A stretch of 64,000 bases of DNA from positions 434,001 to 498,000 of the forward strand of contig JAKPDK010000184.1 in assembly GCA_029552745.1 (NCBI GenBank). Direction: 5' to 3'. This document shows, in pieces, positions 30,512 to 38,326 of this stretch; the first letter of the stretch is position 1; the number at the start of each line of letters is the position of its first letter. This stretch comes from Candidatus Hydrogenedentota bacterium (GTDB lineage: Bacteria; Hydrogenedentota; Hydrogenedentia; Hydrogenedentales; SLHB01). Below the pieces are notes generated by a model, which had not been told where the DNA came from, ran no database searches, and saw only the letters and a program-made list of their open reading frames with translations. A program made the translations under genes and the position numbers.

Positions 30512-31468
30512 ATGCTCTGCACGCTACTTCTCACATCGGCCCTGATAGCAGTTCGGGGCTACGCAACTAATGAAACTTCAGAGCCTCCATCTTTGGAACA
30601 AAAAGGCATTAGATTGACGGGTTTAGCACCATCGCCTGGAGAAACCGCTGCTTTAGGGTTTGCCATCAGCGCCGAATGGATGAAAGGCCAAGTCGTGCTC
30701 CGCTGTCCGGAAACCCTTTCATCCTCGATGGGACTCCATTTCATCGACCATATTAGAAAAGACATGCCTCAACTCTCACCTCTTTCCCAGCCGATAGCAT
30801 GGCGGATGGAACCTAAAAGAGGCATTCTGGCCTATACGGCCCGAACCGAGGAAGGCATCACATTCGAAGGGACCGCTGAAGCTGCTTCGGACGGCGCATG
30901 GATAACCCTCCGCGTTAAAAACGGTTCAAAAGAGCCGCTGAACAGTGTTGCATGTCAAATGTGTCTTTCTCTCTCGGCGGCGCCGCAATTCGCTGCAAAG
31001 AGTGATTTAAGTCATTCTTTCACCTGGATTGGGGGTTACAAAACAAGCCTTGATACGTTGACTCCAACCTCCAACGAAAAAGGAAGGATTCCGTGGCTTC
31101 TTATACCTACAGAAGCGATGCGTCGTAAATACACGGGGCCAAACGAATGCTCCGACGGCTGGTGGGTTGTAAACCAGAACGCCGACTTTCCCCTGCTGGC
31201 ACGCATTGCGGCCGACGGAAGTGGGCTTGTTGGCATTGCCTGGCATGACCCTGCAGCAATGCTTATGACAAACACAGCGATCCCCTGCCTACACGCTGGA
31301 CCCAGCAACGAGTTTTTCCTAAATCCAGGCGAAGAAGGAATTTGGCGAGGCAAAGTCTATCTTACGCGTAACAGTCCCGATAGGTTACTGTCCCAGTATC
31401 GCATCGATGAAGCGGAGAAATTTGTGCGCCACGACCTCGTCGTGACCCGAGCAGAGGCGCCGGAGTGA
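30512..31468 (+). CDS. Secreted protein of unknown function, first gene of the 30.5-34.8 kb operon
   Basis: A 318-residue exported protein with a signal peptide (LCTLLLTSALIAVRGYA). The rest appears to be all-beta with alternating hydrophobic strands (GAWITLRVKNGSKEPLNSVA, GSGLVGIAWHDPAAML), the look of a galactose-mutarotase-type or glycan-binding beta sandwich. A Cys-x-Met-Cys (CQMCLSLS) is notable. No catalytic motif recognised. It overlaps the downstream nitrilase gene by four bases (GTGA), and the next two genes follow within 20 bases or overlap, so all four are one transcription unit. Start is the first ATG; its ribosome site (AAAGAA) is weak. Confidence 0.7.
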   Translation: MLCTLLLTSALIAVRGYATNETSEPPSLEQKGIRLTGLAPSPGETAALGFAISAEWMKGQVVLRCPETLSSSMGLHFIDHIRKDMPQLSPLSQPIAWRMEPKRGILAYTARTEEGITFEGTAEAASDGAWITLRVKNGSKEPLNSVACQMCLSLSAAPQFAAKSDLSHSFTWIGGYKTSLDTLTPTSNEKGRIPWLLIPTEAMRRKYTGPNECSDGWWVVNQNADFPLLARIAADGSGLVGIAWHDPAAMLMTNTAIPCLHAGPSNEFFLNPGEEGIWRGKVYLTRNSPDRLLSQYRIDEAEKFVRHDLVVTRAEAPE

Positions 31469-32283
31469 CAAAGCCCAGTTCCGGAACCTTGAAAGTGGCA
31501 GCGGTTAGAGTCGTGTGGGTGCAAAATTCCGAAGAGCCTGATGAGGTTGTCGAACGGGGCTTTAGATTGGCGGCAGAGGCAGCGGCACAAGGGGCAAAAT
31601 TAATAGTTTTCCCTGAGAATTTCCTCCATTCACGTAACCCGGCTGACCAGATGATCCCTGATGGAATGCTCGTGAAGCGAACTGAGACATTTGCCAAAGA
31701 GCACAGCGTATACGTTGTCGCAGGAATCATCGAGAGTTGGAAATTTGACTGGCGCCAAACCTACGACACTTTCTTGAGTGCCATCGTCGTAGGCCCAGAG
31801 GGTTATTTGAGCAAGCATAGGAAAGTTGATGTCAACATGGTCCCCTACGACCGAACATGGAAGCCGGGCATGCCGAAAACTGACATGGACGTATGGCCAG
31901 GAGATGATTTTGCCATGCATAAAGCGGGCCCTATCGAAAGAATGGGGATATTGATCTGCCGTGATTCCAATTCCAGCTGGGCGTGGACACGAGTGCTTAC
32001 CCAAAATCCACAGATTATCGTCAGCCCGAACCTGCGCGACTCGGTAGTAAAATATGGCGCAGATTTCGGCGCTATGGCCGCCCTAAGCGGAGTACCGATG
32101 GTCGTTGCTTGTGGACACCCGGAAAGCGAATCGTTTATCGTGAACCGACGAGGGGAGGTGGTCGCGTTTCTGAATGACAGAGAAGGGGCCATCGTGGCCG
32201 ACGTAGAATTAGCCCCGCGGGACCCGATGCTCGTCTCGTTCGACGTCGTTCATAATAGCTTCGTTGTTCCACCGGAATACTGA
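31465..32283 (+). CDS. Nitrilase-superfamily carbon-nitrogen hydrolase
   Basis: A cytoplasmic C-N hydrolase with the complete catalytic set: Glu51 (FPENFLH), Lys120 (KHRKVD) and the nucleophile Cys165 (LICRDSN). A conserved Glu usually found between Lys and Cys is not evident in the expected place. Family members cleave amides, nitriles or carbamoyl groups (omega-amidase, N-carbamoyl amino-acid amidohydrolase and so on). Starts with a GTG that overlaps the previous stop (GTGA), so it is translationally coupled. The operon partner is a creatininase-type amidohydrolase, so the two may act on one amide-containing compound. Substrate unknown. Confidence 0.85.
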   Translation: MTKPSSGTLKVAAVRVVWVQNSEEPDEVVERGFRLAAEAAAQGAKLIVFPENFLHSRNPADQMIPDGMLVKRTETFAKEHSVYVVAGIIESWKFDWRQTYDTFLSAIVVGPEGYLSKHRKVDVNMVPYDRTWKPGMPKTDMDVWPGDDFAMHKAGPIERMGILICRDSNSSWAWTRVLTQNPQIIVSPNLRDSVVKYGADFGAMAALSGVPMVVACGHPESESFIVNRRGEVVAFLNDREGAIVADVELAPRDPMLVSFDVVHNSFVVPPEY

Positions 32284-32303
32284 AAAGACCGTAAAGAACT
32301 CTA

Positions 32304-32948
32304 ATGAAAAGATATGAGATACTTTTTGAGCGTGCTCTGCCACGGGATTTAGAGGCAGCCATCGCAGACAAACCTGTTGCGTATGTCCCAATGGGGACGC
32401 TTGAGTTTCACGGCTGGCATCTTCCCCTGGGTTTCGACGCCCTAAAGGCGCATACCATATGTGTTTTAGCTTGCAAAAAAACCCAGGGGTTTGCCGGCGG
32501 CCACCGTGATTACCCGGGGTCGATTATCAGTGACGAAATGTATGTGGCCGGAAACCTGCAAATCATTCTCCAGCGCTTATACGCCATGGGGTTTCGCGTC
32601 GTAGTAGTATTGACGGGACACTATCCACAAGAACAGGTAAACCTGGTCCACGCAGTAGCATCGGAAGCCGAAAAAAAGTTCTCTCAATTCCGGGTGATAG
32701 CACTGGCCGAACCTGAAGCGTTCCGGGAATGGCGTGGCGACCACGCGGCAAAATGGGAGACTTCCCTAGCGCATGCAATTATGCCCGAACTTGTGGACTA
32801 CGATGCTATGGAGAAACACGAAGACCCTCTATATGGTATTTGCGGTGAAGATCCCCGGCGGACAGCTTCCCAGAAATTGGGTCAGGAAATGCTTGAGGCA
32901 ATCGTTGTACATCTAGCGAATAAAGTCGAACATGCACTATCTCATTAA
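32304..32948 (+). CDS. Creatininase-family amidohydrolase
   Basis: A 214-residue creatininase/FAPy-deformylase family (PF02633) protein. Metal-binding motif MGTLEFHGWHLPLGFDALKA holds Glu34, His36, His39 and Asp45; VVVLTGHYPQEQ matches the conserved 'TGHGGN' block (modified), and the later GDHAAKWETSLAHAIMPE supplies the Glu of 'HAGExET'. Family members cleave cyclic or linear amides, including creatinine, N-formylated and lactam compounds. The next gene begins 17 bases before this stop. It is the third gene of the operon with the nitrilase. Confidence 0.85.
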   Translation: MKRYEILFERALPRDLEAAIADKPVAYVPMGTLEFHGWHLPLGFDALKAHTICVLACKKTQGFAGGHRDYPGSIISDEMYVAGNLQIILQRLYAMGFRVVVVLTGHYPQEQVNLVHAVASEAEKKFSQFRVIALAEPEAFREWRGDHAAKWETSLAHAIMPELVDYDAMEKHEDPLYGICGEDPRRTASQKLGQEMLEAIVVHLANKVEHALSH

Positions 32949-34782
32949 AGCGTTTTACCTTGCGACGGTGCTATTGGCAAGTGCAGGGAGTCAGCTAACC
33001 CAAAACAATAGCAAGCTTCGCCTTTTTGATGCAGAAGCGTACGGTGCTGTCGCCAACGATGACTCGGATGATAGAGTTGCGTTGCAGGCGGCAATCGACG
33101 ACGCAGTGAAGCACGGAGAGAACACGGCAATTGTTCTCAGACCTGGGATTTATCGCATTGGCGCCTCCCCGGAAGGTCCATCCGCTCTGAAAATAGAAGA
33201 CGCAAGGAAGCTTGAGCTTCGGGGAGAATCCGGTAAGACGGAGCTAATCTTCACCGAGCCTCGTCAGGGCGGTATATTCGTCACCAAGAGCAACGAAGTG
33301 TTTATCCGGCACCTCACAATTGACTTCGATCCGCCGCCCTTTATGCAAGGCGTTGTCCGGAGACAAGATGGCGCGGCCGGCCATTTTGAACTTCTTTTAC
33401 AAGATGGTTTTCCTTCTCTGCGAGAACCGTGGTTTTCGGAAGCCCCAAGACCTTATGGCCAATGGGGAGTCATCATTGATACTGAGCATCGCCGCCTCAA
33501 ATCCGGCACTCCGGACTTCATCTTCCTGGACCACTGGGAGCAATTGGACAAAAACCTTTGGCGCATCTACGTCGTAGAAGACCAGCGAGATCGCATCGGG
33601 TATATGAAACAGGGTGACCGGTTCGTGCACATGGCGCGCTCAGGCCCGGGGGCCATCTTCTTTAATCAATCACGACATTCCGGCGTCGAAAACGTGACGA
33701 TACATGCATCGCCCTCGTTGGCCATCGGAGCCGTTTCTGTAGACGGATTGATTGTCCGGAATGCCCGCATCGCGTTTCGAAAAAATACTGCCCGTTTGAT
33801 CGCCACAAACGCGGATGGAGTGCATTGTCAACAGAATCTTGAAGGACCTTTAATCGAGCACTGTTATTTCGAAGGGATGGCGGACGATGCTGTCAACATC
33901 TATTATTACCCGAACAAGGTGCTTGAAGTGCGAAATAATAGTACATTCCACGTAAGTGCGGGTGGCATAATCGAACCTGGGGAACTAATTCAGTTTTTCG
34001 AGCCGGTTGAAGGACTAATACGTGGCGAAGCTCGCACAGTGAACGTATCTCACTCGGATAACGGCTACGAAATATCTCTCGACCGTGTTCTATCGTGTGT
34101 CCACGCTGCGCCAGACGGAGGCGACCACGTGTACAACTTGTCGCGCGCAGGGCGCGGCTTTGCCATTAGGCACAATACATTTCACTACCACCGCCGTCAT
34201 GGCGTAATGATCAAAGCCCCAGGAGGAGTTGTTGAGAGTAACACGATCGAAGGATGCGGCGGTTTTGGCATCGTGGTGGGAAACGATCCTGATTGGCCGG
34301 AAGGTGTTATACCGACGGATATTGTAATTCGCGGCAATCGAGTTGCAGGTTGCGGGCGTTCCGTATGGTACCCGCGCATGTCTCACGCGGCCGCCATACA
34401 GGTTACAGGGCGCGCTGAAAAGGGCCGCTTAGCAAAAGAACGCATTGTAAAGCGAATCACTATTACACAAAATGAGATCATCGATCCTCCCGGCGCCGGC
34501 ATTAGTATTGGCTCTGCCCAGGACGTGAGCATTGTGGGAAACTCCGTGCACTTCGGGAACGAGGCCATTCTAGTGGGGAAACATGCCGCTATCGAGGTGA
34601 TAAACACGGAAGCAGTACGCGTTGCAGACCTGATGGTGACAGGCCACAGAGATGAACTTATCGCAGCAATACAAGCAGATAACGAATCGTTGGGCTCTAA
34701 CTCCTATTTAAACGTAGAGGAGAGTTCCGTACACTTGCCCGACATGAAAACGCTGCCGATCATTCTTGGAAAACTCCAATAG
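32932..34782 (+). CDS. Secreted right-handed beta-helix glycosidase, GH110-like
   Basis: A 616-residue exported protein (signal peptide KAFYLATVLLASAGS). The first domain begins with the pectate-lyase-like DAEAYGAVANDDSDDRVALQ, followed by coils of a right-handed beta helix (IEHCYFEGMADDAVNIYYYP, VVESNTIEGCGGFGIVVGN, ITQNEIIDPPGAGISIGSAQ). The combination NADGVHCQQ ... GMADDAVNI with a following beta-rich insertion resembles alpha-1,3-galactosidases of family GH110, which use an Asp in this region. I hold GH110 as probable rather than certain; a pectinase-like role is an alternative. It overlaps the creatininase gene by 17 bases. No lipobox; likely periplasmic or secreted. Confidence 0.75.
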   Translation: MHYLIKAFYLATVLLASAGSQLTQNNSKLRLFDAEAYGAVANDDSDDRVALQAAIDDAVKHGENTAIVLRPGIYRIGASPEGPSALKIEDARKLELRGESGKTELIFTEPRQGGIFVTKSNEVFIRHLTIDFDPPPFMQGVVRRQDGAAGHFELLLQDGFPSLREPWFSEAPRPYGQWGVIIDTEHRRLKSGTPDFIFLDHWEQLDKNLWRIYVVEDQRDRIGYMKQGDRFVHMARSGPGAIFFNQSRHSGVENVTIHASPSLAIGAVSVDGLIVRNARIAFRKNTARLIATNADGVHCQQNLEGPLIEHCYFEGMADDAVNIYYYPNKVLEVRNNSTFHVSAGGIIEPGELIQFFEPVEGLIRGEARTVNVSHSDNGYEISLDRVLSCVHAAPDGGDHVYNLSRAGRGFAIRHNTFHYHRRHGVMIKAPGGVVESNTIEGCGGFGIVVGNDPDWPEGVIPTDIVIRGNRVAGCGRSVWYPRMSHAAAIQVTGRAEKGRLAKERIVKRITITQNEIIDPPGAGISIGSAQDVSIVGNSVHFGNEAILVGKHAAIEVINTEAVRVADLMVTGHRDELIAAIQADNESLGSNSYLNVEESSVHLPDMKTLPIILGKLQ

Positions 34783-35427
34783 CGGCTTAACACTCGAGAA
34801 CCATTACCGGGAAGAAGATTTAACGTCCGCCCATTCTATTCAGAACAAGCGGTCCTCTTGCGTTGGACGCAGCACGCTCGTTGCGTATTCCACTGAGTTC
34901 GAGGTTTCCTCGGCAACATACCATTCGTCCTAATTTTTCTTAGGGGAATTTCGTCTAAGTCCGGAGATTAATCTCGACGAGTTATGGATTGCTGAACGTT
35001 TTTGTTCGATTAAAATACGTCAAGTCAGACAGCATTCCTTTGCAATAGGAAATGTTAAACTGAGTTCAAGTGATGAACAAGGACCGAGAAAAGCGGAGTT
35101 TTGTGAAAACCTCGGATGTGAGCATTCTCAAGCGAGTAGTGGTAAGGTCTTTGCGCGCTCAAAGCCAAATACTGTTTCAGGAATTATTTAACGAACATTA
35201 CTTAAGTAACTTGACTTCACCTGAGCTGACCCTGCCGAGCCTTCGAAATACAACGTTTTCCAGTGAACCAACTTCGCTTTTTCCTTTTGACAGAACAACG
35301 GTTTCGTGCTAGAGTTTTCTTAAGATGGTTATATGCAATCGCTTAGTTATTGGGCAACAACAGAACCGCGTTACGGCGGGCCTCCGCAGATGCGAGAGCG
35401 CGCGACGCGGCCAATCGGGGGAAACGC
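34783..35427. other. Intergenic region, no supported gene
   Basis: About 640 bases. An 80-codon frame beginning at 35070 (GTG ATG) ends at 35312; it has no ribosome site and no recognisable features, so I do not call it. No interspersed repeat copy is present, unlike most other long spacers in this window. Nothing else supported. Confidence 0.55.
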
Positions 35428-36429
35428 GTGACTAGGTTTGCATACACAGCGACGGACGAGTCCGGTAATGAGCGTTTTGGGATTTTGGAATGCGCCAACG
35501 AGGCAGATGCCATTGACGCAATCCGTAAAATGGGCCTCTACGTTACCGACGTTCACCCAGCGCGAATGACGGACGAATTGCGCGCGCGGTTTTTGGAACA
35601 GCGCGAGCAGCGGAAACTGGAAGAACAACGACGGCAGGAACGTCTTCGGGCTCAACATCCGCGGCAGCGTCTTGTGGTACGATATGCCGATGGACGAATT
35701 TTGAAAGGTGTTTGTTTCGCGCTGAATCCCAAAGAAAACTTTTTCCATTTGGACGAAGTAGATCAAGAAGGTAAGAGCACAGGCAAAACGATACAGGTGC
35801 GTTTTAGCGATCTGAAAGCCGTTTTTCACGTGCGCAGTTTCGATGGCAATTTTGACCGAAGCCTCCCCGCCCCGGTTGTCGGCGAGAAAGGTACCGAATT
35901 GATTGTGGAATTCCAGGACGGTGAAATCATTCGGGGGTTTACCTTGCGGCATTACGATCCCGACGCGCCGCGGTTTTTTCTCATTCCAGAAGAATCAGAT
36001 TCGAATAACATTAGTATTCTGGTGGAACGCAAATCTGTGGCTGCAGTTTACACCCCAGAAGAATGGAAAAGAAAACAACAGCAACAAAAGGAGGGACAGA
36101 AACAGGACACTACAACTACACTTACGCAAGAAGAAACACTCGGTGATTTCTATTTCGACACGCGCAATTACCCCGCAGCGCTGGCGCAATACGAGTTGGC
36201 TCTTCGTAAACAGCCTCATTCCAGCAGGCTCCGTTCCAAAATATTGGCCTCCCAGTACAACGTCGGCGTGCAGTATATTAAGCGCAGGGAGTATGCTAAG
36301 GCGCTGGAAATGATGGAAAAAGTTCTCAAGGCGGACCCGAAAAACCCCCATGCGCTTAAGAAAAAACATCAACTGCAGCGGGTCCTTGAGCGCGGCGCCG
36401 GCCGTCCCGAAAAGGAAATTGTCGAATAA
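35428..36429 (+). CDS. GspF-N-like domain plus TPR protein of unknown function
   Basis: A 333-residue cytoplasmic protein with a clear mosaic. Residues 1-50 look like the GspF/PilC N-terminal domain (FAYTATDESGNERFGILECA, NEADAIDAIRKMGLYVTDV). Then a charged coiled coil rich in Arg, Glu and Gln (LEQREQRKLEEQRRQERLRA). Residues 85-215 hold two similar beta domains with 'VRYADGRILKGVCF' and 'VEFQDGEIIRGFTL', the PilZ-like or DUF6982-type pattern. The C-terminus is a TPR pair (FDTRNYPAALAQYELALRKQ, YIKRREYAKALEMMEKVLKA). Start is the GTG at 35428 after GGGGGAAACGC; an in-frame TTG at 35350 is possible but adds a featureless stretch. Confidence 0.75.
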   Translation: MTRFAYTATDESGNERFGILECANEADAIDAIRKMGLYVTDVHPARMTDELRARFLEQREQRKLEEQRRQERLRAQHPRQRLVVRYADGRILKGVCFALNPKENFFHLDEVDQEGKSTGKTIQVRFSDLKAVFHVRSFDGNFDRSLPAPVVGEKGTELIVEFQDGEIIRGFTLRHYDPDAPRFFLIPEESDSNNISILVERKSVAAVYTPEEWKRKQQQQKEGQKQDTTTTLTQEETLGDFYFDTRNYPAALAQYELALRKQPHSSRLRSKILASQYNVGVQYIKRREYAKALEMMEKVLKADPKNPHALKKKHQLQRVLERGAGRPEKEIVE

Positions 36430-36463
36430 ATGGTATTATTTCTATAGAGGTAGTTTTTCTAGA

Positions 36464-36493
36464 GAGCCGTACACGGCAGTTTTTGTGCGGCTC
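36464..36493 (+). promoter_or_regulatory. Hairpin abutting the ribosome site of the phosphoesterase gene
   Basis: GAGCCG (36464-36469) and CAC (36472-36474) pair with GTG (36485-36487) and CGGCTC (36488-36493), with a two-base bulge and a ten-base loop that contains a T5 run. The Shine-Dalgarno GGAGGA (36494-36499) begins at the very next base, 13 bases before the ATG. Could control translation or mRNA stability. Confidence 0.4.
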
Positions 36494-36512
36494 GGAGGAT
36501 TATATTTGGTAC

Positions 36513-37247
36513 ATGTTAATTGCAATTATCGCTGACTTACACGCAAATTTGGAAGCAACGTTGGCTGTCTTGAAGGAGATCGACCGCAGAAAACCCGACA
36601 AAATCCTCTGTTTGGGCGATTTGGCAGGCTACAATGCGAATCCTAATGAGGTAATTGATTTGATCCGGGAACGCGGTATCCCCACCGTGATGGGAAATCA
36701 CGATGCGGCTGTGTGCGGTCTTGAAGACCCCTGGTTTTTTCGTGCCGCCGCAAAACGTGCCATCGAATGGCAAGTGGAGCAAATCCGCGATGACAATCGG
36801 CGTTGGCTGTTTTCATGTCCGGAAGATATCCAATTTGCCGGTTTCTGCCTAGGAGTGCACGGCTCCCCTAGTAGCCGCGACCACTATATCATTGATTGGT
36901 TGGATGCCATGCGGCAGCTCGAATATCTTAATGGAAGAGAAAATGTTAAGGTGTGTTTTTTCGGCCATAGCCATCGGCCATCCTTTTTCAGTGAAAAAGG
37001 CAACACCAACTCGGTCAACACCGCGCCGATCCGCCAATTACACCCAGCAAATCGGTATTTCATTAATCCGGGCGCTGTGGGACAACCCCGGGACCGAGAT
37101 CCACGCGCCGCTTTTGCGCTGTTCGATACAGACAAAATGACGATCGAGTTTTGCCGCGTGGAATACGATATTGATCGGTGTGTCGAAAAGATCCTGCAAG
37201 CCAATCTCCCCATGGAATTGGCACGAAGACTTCATAAAGGCAAATGA
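36513..37247 (+). CDS. Calcineurin-like metallophosphoesterase (MJ0936/YfcE type)
   Basis: A 244-residue cytoplasmic phosphoesterase. The metal motifs are complete: ADLHANLEA (DxH), LCLGDLAGY (GD), VMGNHDAAV (GNHD), VHGSPSS and FFGHSHRPS (GHxH). The protein is typical of small prokaryotic phosphodiesterases with unknown natural substrate. An ATG overlap (ATGA) couples it to the dGTPase-like gene. The ATG at 36513 is used because the preceding codons carry no match to the family; the ribosome site is 13 bases away, which is long. Nucleotide metabolism is a guess from the neighbour. Confidence 0.85.
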   Translation: MLIAIIADLHANLEATLAVLKEIDRRKPDKILCLGDLAGYNANPNEVIDLIRERGIPTVMGNHDAAVCGLEDPWFFRAAAKRAIEWQVEQIRDDNRRWLFSCPEDIQFAGFCLGVHGSPSSRDHYIIDWLDAMRQLEYLNGRENVKVCFFGHSHRPSFFSEKGNTNSVNTAPIRQLHPANRYFINPGAVGQPRDRDPRAAFALFDTDKMTIEFCRVEYDIDRCVEKILQANLPMELARRLHKGK

Positions 37248-38326
37248 AAGATCTCTCTGTCCACTCCGGCCCCCCGTTGGAAGACCACCAGGGTGGGAGA
37301 ACGCCATGTATTCGCTCCTTACTGGAAAAACGGGAAAAGAGCCTTTTGTCGCCCTATGCCGCACTGGCGGCTGAGTCAAAGGGTAGGGCACAGCCGGAAC
37401 CCGAACATGAATATCGAACGGCTTTTCAACGCGACCGGGACCGCATTATCCATACAAAAGCCTTCCGGCGTCTAAAACGCAAGACCCAGGTATTCTTGGC
37501 GCCCGCTGGAGACCATTTTCGGACCCGTTTGACCCATACGCTGGAAGTTTCTCAAATCGCACGAACCGTGGCGCGCGCCCTCTTCTTGAACGAAGACCTC
37601 ACGGAAGCCATTGCCTTGGGTCACGACTTGGGACACACTCCTTTCGGCCACGCGGGCGAGGCGGTGCTAAACGAAATCCGACCGGAAGGATTTCATCATG
37701 CCGAGCAAAGCCTCCGCGTGGTAGATTTTTTGGAACACACGCCGCGAGGTAGAGGCTTAAACTTGACATTCGAAGTCCGCGACGGTATCCGTAATCATTC
37801 TCGGGGGAAAGCTATTCTCCAAGGCGCTGAGGGACACTTCGCCGCGACGCGCGAAGGCGAAATTGTGAGCGTCTGCGACGCCATCGCGTATATTAACCAC
37901 GATATTGACGACGCCGTCCGCGCCCGAATTATCACCATAGAGGACTTGCCACAAAGTGCAATTCGTTTACTTGGTAATACCCAAGGAGAACGAATCAACT
38001 CCATGGTAACAGCCCTTATCCAAGGCAGCCGGGACGGTGTTATTTCCATAGCTGAGCCCGTACGCTCCGCTACGTGGGAGTTGCGCGCCTATTTGTACGC
38101 CAAACTCTATCCTTGCGAAGCCATCATGCGGGAAATCAATAAGGGCAAGAAAATCTTGCGAGAACTCTATTACTTTCTTCTTGAAAATCCCGACCAGGAG
38201 ATCCAAGAAGACTCAACTCAAGAACCTCTGGAACGCCGCGTCGTAGATTTTACCGCTGGCATGACCGACCAGTACGCCTTATCTCTGTACCGCCGCTACT
38301 TTTTCCCCGTTTCCTGGCCCGAATAA
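37244..38326 (+). CDS. dgt: Deoxyguanosinetriphosphate triphosphohydrolase-like protein
   Basis: HD-domain dNTP triphosphohydrolase that releases triphosphate from dNTPs, balancing the DNA-precursor pool. The HD motif is complete: RTRLTHTLEVSQIARTVA, then AIALGHDLGHTPFGHAG (His-Asp pair) and the C-terminal Asp in CDAIAYINHDIDDAV. FQRDRDRIIHTKAFRRLKRKTQVF is the highly conserved N-terminal block of the 'dGTPase-like type 2' group (the family without E. coli Dgt's insert). Length 360 is right for that group. Starts by an ATGA overlap with the phosphoesterase. Converges on trkA 21 bases later. Confidence 0.92.
   Translation: MKDLSVHSGPPLEDHQGGRTPCIRSLLEKREKSLLSPYAALAAESKGRAQPEPEHEYRTAFQRDRDRIIHTKAFRRLKRKTQVFLAPAGDHFRTRLTHTLEVSQIARTVARALFLNEDLTEAIALGHDLGHTPFGHAGEAVLNEIRPEGFHHAEQSLRVVDFLEHTPRGRGLNLTFEVRDGIRNHSRGKAILQGAEGHFAATREGEIVSVCDAIAYINHDIDDAVRARIITIEDLPQSAIRLLGNTQGERINSMVTALIQGSRDGVISIAEPVRSATWELRAYLYAKLYPCEAIMREINKGKKILRELYYFLLENPDQEIQEDSTQEPLERRVVDFTAGMTDQYALSLYRRYFFPVSWPE

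Follow-up and report, generated by a model that had tools for sequence, protein, structure and literature searches.

We describe a cluster of four genes, g1 to g4, in a stretch of 64,000 nucleotides from a Candidatus Hydrogenedentota bacterium (contig JAKPDK010000184.1, positions 434,001 to 498,000; this whole stretch is hereafter the window). The genes encode an exported protein whose domain family is undescribed, a C-N hydrolase, a creatininase-fold protein and an exported beta-helix protein related to GH110. We propose, tentatively and as a reading that stops a little short of probable, that this operon joins two older associations, one between the g1 module and C-N hydrolases and another between the creatininase fold and a GH110-related exo-glycosidase, with an N-acylated or amide-bearing glycan as the common theme. 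The proposal is made because the genes overlap, g1 fusions recur, relatives of g4 adjoin amide hydrolases, and the spacing of the GH110 catalytic triad is identical in g4. What is most novel in it is the g1 domain, seen as a module carried by exported amide hydrolases. A literature search returned no paper joining the full set of terms sought; in the searched text of two Hydrogenedentota papers, GH110 was absent from PMC10866078, and GH110, creatininase and nitrilase from PMC11406978 (term search).

The operon comprises the following features.

30512..31468, + strand: g1, 318-aa exported protein (undescribed domain family)
31465..32283, + strand: g2, C-N hydrolase of the nitrilase superfamily (PF00795, triad residues aligned)
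32304..32948, + strand: g3, creatininase-fold protein (PF02633, predicted fold)
32481..32486, + strand: g3 codons T60 and Q61, flanking a missing 9-residue segment (27 bases, in frame)
32932..34782, + strand: g4, exported right-handed beta-helix protein related to GH110 (predicted start; PF13229, GH110 profile)

In the open reading frame list of the window, the four genes follow one another on the + strand. The original prediction had placed them overlapping or within 20 bases of each other, and the coordinates agree: g1 and g2 overlap by 4 bases, g2 and g3 are 20 bases apart, and g3 and g4 overlap by 17 bases. The gene identities it gave were likewise recovered, with PF00795 for g2, PF02633 for g3, a GH110-like g4 (profile E 1.4e-46), and a g1 that is exported and matches no family. 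Hydrophobic N-termini are present on g1 and g4 and absent from g2 and g3, and no signal peptide was seen on g2. The G+C content is even across the four genes, at ~52%. We read them as one transcription unit, known so far from one Hydrogenedentota genome (4.36 million bases in total). Promoter-like and terminator-like matches around them are about as numerous as in shuffled sequence.

An exported domain fused to amide hydrolases

The g1 protein has no curated match in Pfam, NCBIfam or PHROGs (the best Pfam hit is DUF943, E 0.14), and a profile of 25 family members retrieved no credible solved structure from the PDB (best E 0.31); a single marginal Pfam match was found in one of these 25 members. 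An AlphaFold2 single-sequence model of g1 (pLDDT 34.7) was not used. The family is present in 31 of the 68 phylum genomes, as well as in 5 of 14 further genomes picked for carrying a g3 relative. Across the 25 aligned rows 15 columns are invariant, including W56, E67, H80, N137, C151, W244, N254, C259 and H261.

After redundant rows were removed, 48 proteins carried the g1 domain. Ten multi-domain ones were scanned against Pfam together and others separately; among the g1 proteins of ~1000 residues, the scan covered L104 alone. No Pfam families were found in L104, in L324 or in one L326 g1 protein of two. The stand-alone form is common, and no conserved neighbours were found for those stand-alone proteins that were scanned. 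The recognised fusion partners are three distinct C-N hydrolases, eight NodB polysaccharide deacetylases and one GH42-like protein, such that the catalytic partner is a C-N hydrolase, either nitrilase-type or NodB, in 11 of the 12 g1 proteins for which one was recognised.

NodB-type deacetylases strip acyl groups from amino-sugar polymers. Their fusion to a C-terminal g1 domain was found in 8 proteins, one per genome (L073:2709-4502 on the + strand; L032, L038, L315, L316, L027, L254 and L317), and one of these genomes, G076, lies outside the phylum. All eight retain the H-x-x-x-H motif and match PF01522 with E values of 1e-17 to 9e-23, and their g1 domains match with E values of 2e-30 to 4e-39 when the profile used is free of these proteins. 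Since their pairwise identity is 48-94%, we regard them as one family, probably derived from a single fusion event.

The fusion of a nitrilase-type C-N hydrolase to a C-terminal g1 domain (CN-g1) occurs in 4 of the 68 phylum genomes, one being the window's own. Two of the contigs, L092 and L095, come from genomes of different families (G021 and G006) and are 99.8% identical over 3879 bases, so that three rather than four distinct CN-g1 proteins are counted; the near-identity probably reflects mis-binning or very recent transfer. Because the CN-g1 and NodB-g1 groups each constitute one family, the sequences point to at least two fusion events. In the tree, one supported set (7 rows, 98/97) unites the g1 of the window, three stand-alone relatives and the g1 domains of the CN-g1 fusions. 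A search with the CN-g1 profile, in which at most three candidates per genome were scored at E <= 1e-40 and misses are possible, matched 2 of 343 Planctomycetota genomes (in the C-N hydrolase part only) and none of 337 Verrucomicrobiota genomes.

The CN-g1 fusion gene of the window's own genome (L094, G000:C24:1-20000) has an AraC regulator upstream and lies near two ABC transporter genes, a GH129-like gene, a second C-N hydrolase and two exported proteins that we take to be CehA/PHP-like, one of which was scanned and had no Pfam match. In L092:5398-12493 the fusion is flanked by a sodium:solute symporter gene on one side and a beta-helix/PASTA gene on the other, with a GFO/IDH/MocA oxidoreductase gene coming next. 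A 645-aa C-N hydrolase protein that adjoins a g1 protein in L096 is an NAD synthase and was taken as unrelated.

A beta-helix protein related to GH110 and its neighbours

The g4 protein matches PF13229 (E 2e-19) and solved GH110 enzymes (E 2.5e-14), and a profile of 16 g4 relatives matches 8pvs with E 1.4e-46 and 7jw4 with E 6.7e-35. Residues D295, D318 and D319 of g4 correspond to D321, D344 and D345 of PdGH110B, with spacings of 23 and 24 in both. According to PMC7939477, D344 is the likely general acid and D321 and/or D345 serve as bases. This triad is complete in 14 of the 16 g4 rows, D295 and D318 being changed in G007 and G008; the g4 relatives of these two genomes (L082 and L080, respectively) have lost the general acid Asp as well as a -1 subsite Glu. 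Counterparts of N348, R451, W486 and E488 of PdGH110B are found at N322, R421, W455 and E457, and R265 has a probable counterpart. Judged by these alignments, the machinery of g4 is of the inverting beta-helix glycosidase type. The -1 subsite, including R453 and E480, is called remarkably conserved in GH110 in the same paper (PMC7939477), but in g4 these two residues are replaced by His423 and Val449, so the galactose subsite is not conserved in full and the sugar of g4 may therefore be other than galactose.

Besides the window, 20 regions around g4 relatives were compared; their neighbours were Pfam-scanned in part, and several regions are cut by contig ends. A creatininase-fold gene lies directly upstream of the g4 relative in 3 of the 20 (G015, G016 and G017). 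The g4 relative of G042 shares an overlap with a penicillin amidase gene, and that of G067 has a convergent NodB-g1 gene within 20 bases. About 0.2 amide-hydrolase neighbours would be expected in 15 regions if ~30 of 3700 genes encode such enzymes, compared with three independent kinds seen, although this is a rough and after-the-fact estimate. A glutamine amidotransferase beside a distant g4 relative in G060 was left out of the count. When mapped on the g4 tree (16 rows), the creatininase pairing requires two changes, the simplest history being a gain plus a loss in a clade of 8, and a single clade of creatininase-paired rows is mildly rejected (p-AU 0.038). The pattern that survives is that the g1 domain and g4-type glycosidases repeatedly occur with amide hydrolases of several folds.

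A creatininase-fold protein with a deletion

The g3 protein belongs to PF02633 (E 6.9e-27; 94.8 bits, cut-off 31.3). Its AlphaFold2 model (pLDDT 85.2) resembles creatininase PDB 1q3k (Foldseek E 4e-12, TM 0.78), with residues 66-73, around the lesion described below, falling under pLDDT 50. It retains E34, H36, D45, H106 and E152. Pro108 aligns with Glu122 of creatininase, an active-site residue of which mutants exist among PDB entries, and by this residue g3 falls outside creatininase in the strict sense. Three curated models stayed below their cut-offs: g3 scored 63.3 bits with creatininase (235 needed), 43.2 of 172 bits with MftE (mycofactocin) and 30.2 of 245 bits with IolN. After T60, g3 lacks 9 residues that are present in all 28 aligned relatives, which come from Hydrogenedentota, Chloroflexota, archaea and other phyla.

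The close subfamily of g3 (57% identity; G015 and G006) ends in a P-x-W-Y-Y tail, which g3 itself lacks. The same tail is carried by the creatininase-like proteins adjoining g4 relatives in G016 and G017, and we therefore place the g4-adjoining creatininases in one subfamily. The G016 and G017 proteins have lost E34 and H106, which we take to be metal ligands, yet score above the Pfam cut-off; these proteins (L077:11977-12672 and L079:8140-8820) are likely pseudoenzymes. A further close g3 relative (L111, G006:C144) is preceded by an M24-type (creatinase-like) gene, with no g4 relative detected next to it. Among 80 loci of g3 relatives, the genes of the g3 relative and a C-N hydrolase overlap in two, both from closely related Planctomycetota, which lends weak support to a g2-g3 link.

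A divergent C-N hydrolase

The g2 protein is a member of the nitrilase superfamily (PF00795; E 1.5e-17, 64.2 bits, cut-off 23.2), and its Glu51, Lys120 and Cys165 align with the catalytic triad of that superfamily. None of the curated nitrilase subfamily models reached its cut-off, the best scoring 46.3 of 500 bits. The best match outside the window has 31% identity over part of the protein (E 4e-10), and a search without a positive control found relatives in none of 343 Planctomycetota genomes at E <= 1e-12. In the C-N hydrolase tree only one of the 47 branches is longer than that of g2, a very divergent sequence. Two simple relationships to the CN-g1 fusions were considered and set aside. 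That g1 and g2 are a broken fusion is ruled out by the reversed gene order and by the hydrophobic N-terminus of g1 itself; g2 also lacks the hydrophobic N-terminus of the fused C-N hydrolases, and the arrangement in the window is therefore not a split fusion. Orthology of g2 with the fused C-N hydrolase domain is not supported, the branch being too long.

Genomic setting of the operon

Upstream of g1 lies a divergent protein kinase gene on the - strand, whose start is 851 bases away. Downstream is a DUF6982/TPR gene at 35350, followed by a metallophosphoesterase gene and dgt (block 35350-38326). All 12 regions compared from other genomes of the same family retain this block, and their metallophosphoesterase is 63-81% and dgt 65-73% identical to those of the window; by contrast, g1 and its best relatives within the family share 47-49% identity. 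In none of the 12 regions, in which the length of upstream DNA varies, were g1-g4 detected beside the block, and we therefore consider the site of the operon to be lineage-specific.

Discussion

Under the reading we prefer, in which two older associations meet in one operon, g4 would be exported and would remove a terminal alpha-linked sugar by an inverting GH110/GH28-type mechanism; the triad is observed, and the reaction and the sugar are extrapolated from it. The exported g1 would act as a glycan-recognition or accessory module, as suggested by its being built elsewhere into exported C-N hydrolases and NodB deacetylases. With its aligned triad, g2 may hydrolyse an amide on the released product, presumably in the cytoplasm. 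Given the ligand loss in its orthologues and its own deletion, g3 would be an accessory or decaying member rather than an essential catalyst. What unites them would be a glycan carrying N-acylated or amide-bearing sugars, a reasonable though tentative target. A bolder form of this proposal, which we hold to be doubtful, is that g1 is an undescribed exported module bringing amide hydrolases of unrelated fold (nitrilase, NodB) to one class of N-acylated glycan, that g4 founds a GH110-related family for an alpha-linked, amide-bearing sugar rather than galactose, and that this operon shows one way in which such a kit is put together.

Several observations weigh against the preferred reading. Co-conservation of the four genes, on which the original prediction had staked its pathway, failed for the set: all four occur together in 1 of the 68 phylum genomes, namely the window's own. 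Beside most g4 relatives, the neighbours scanned are housekeeping or otherwise unrelated genes, for example those for anaerobic ribonucleotide reductase, a sulfatase or a kinase. In the tree g2 has a very long branch without a firm place and does not cluster with the fused C-N hydrolases, which have hydrophobic N-termini where g2 has none. No C-N hydrolase was found on the contigs of the three close stand-alone g1 relatives, which are short, and the NodB-g1 proteins probably count as a single fusion event. The amide-containing glycan foreseen by the original prediction gains some support from the fusion of g1 to nitrilase-type and NodB enzymes and from the proximity of g4 relatives to three unrelated amide-hydrolase families. 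The rarity of the foursome, the isolation of g2, and the decay or lack of the creatininase next to most relatives of g4 count on the other side.

The same observations would also fit a chance, lineage-specific cluster of four unrelated accessory genes, co-transcribed by position with no joint pathway. We rate this explanation as unlikely, though a serious contender: the single genome with the foursome, the downstream block kept in the family while g1-g4 go undetected beside it, the eroded look of g3, and the want of a close g2 relative in the genomes sampled all agree with it, but it does not account for gene pairs that recur in other genomes as fusions or adjacencies. The original prediction went further in the other direction, with g2 and g3 as active cytoplasmic amidohydrolases that work one after the other on a sugar freed by g4 and bearing a carbamoyl, formyl or lactam group. 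Although the main catalytic residues are kept in both proteins and the two Planctomycetota loci show overlapping genes of these types, we consider this improbable, given the internal deletion in g3, the loss of E34 and H106 in the creatininase partner of g4 in two genomes, and the lack of a creatininase in the regions representing the sister clade of g4 (8 members); moreover, these particular groups, carbamoyl, formyl or lactam, find no support. Slightly less probable again is that g3, in the manner of the 3-dehydro-scyllo-inosose hydrolase IolN, attacks a ring carbonyl in an oxidised cyclitol or sugar, and that the operon serves sugar or cyclitol oxidation rather than amide chemistry. The weak IolN match and the GFO/IDH/MocA sugar-oxidoreductase gene near one CN-g1 fusion agree with such a role, but the score is far from the IolN cut-off and the creatininase model scores higher.

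The conserved g1 domain, with no match in Pfam or among solved structures and with fusion partners from two unrelated C-N hydrolase families, offers a way into the question of how little-studied bacteria break down nitrogen-bearing polysaccharides. Should g4 act on a sugar other than galactose, it would represent a new specificity among the GH28/GH110 beta-helix glycosidases. The paired genes also yield short, testable hypotheses on substrates.

Comparison with known systems

The closest characterised relatives of g4 are the GH110 exo-alpha-1,3-galactosidases, represented by PdGH110B (PDB 7jw4), which g4 matches over most of its length; it keeps the triad and the counterparts of N348, R451, W486 and E488, but differs at the two -1 subsite residues R453 and E480. 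With creatinine amidohydrolase (PDB 1q3k), g3 shares the fold as well as E34, H36, D45 and H106 (creatininase H120), and differs from it by the alignment of Pro with E122, by its low score with the curated model and by the 9-residue deletion. The g2 protein has the family match and the Glu-Lys-Cys residues of the nitrilase superfamily (PF00795) in place, but falls short of every curated subfamily cut-off. Finally, the NodB-type polysaccharide deacetylases (PF01522) are linked to the operon through the C-terminal g1 domain common to eight of them, while none of the four operon genes encodes a NodB domain.

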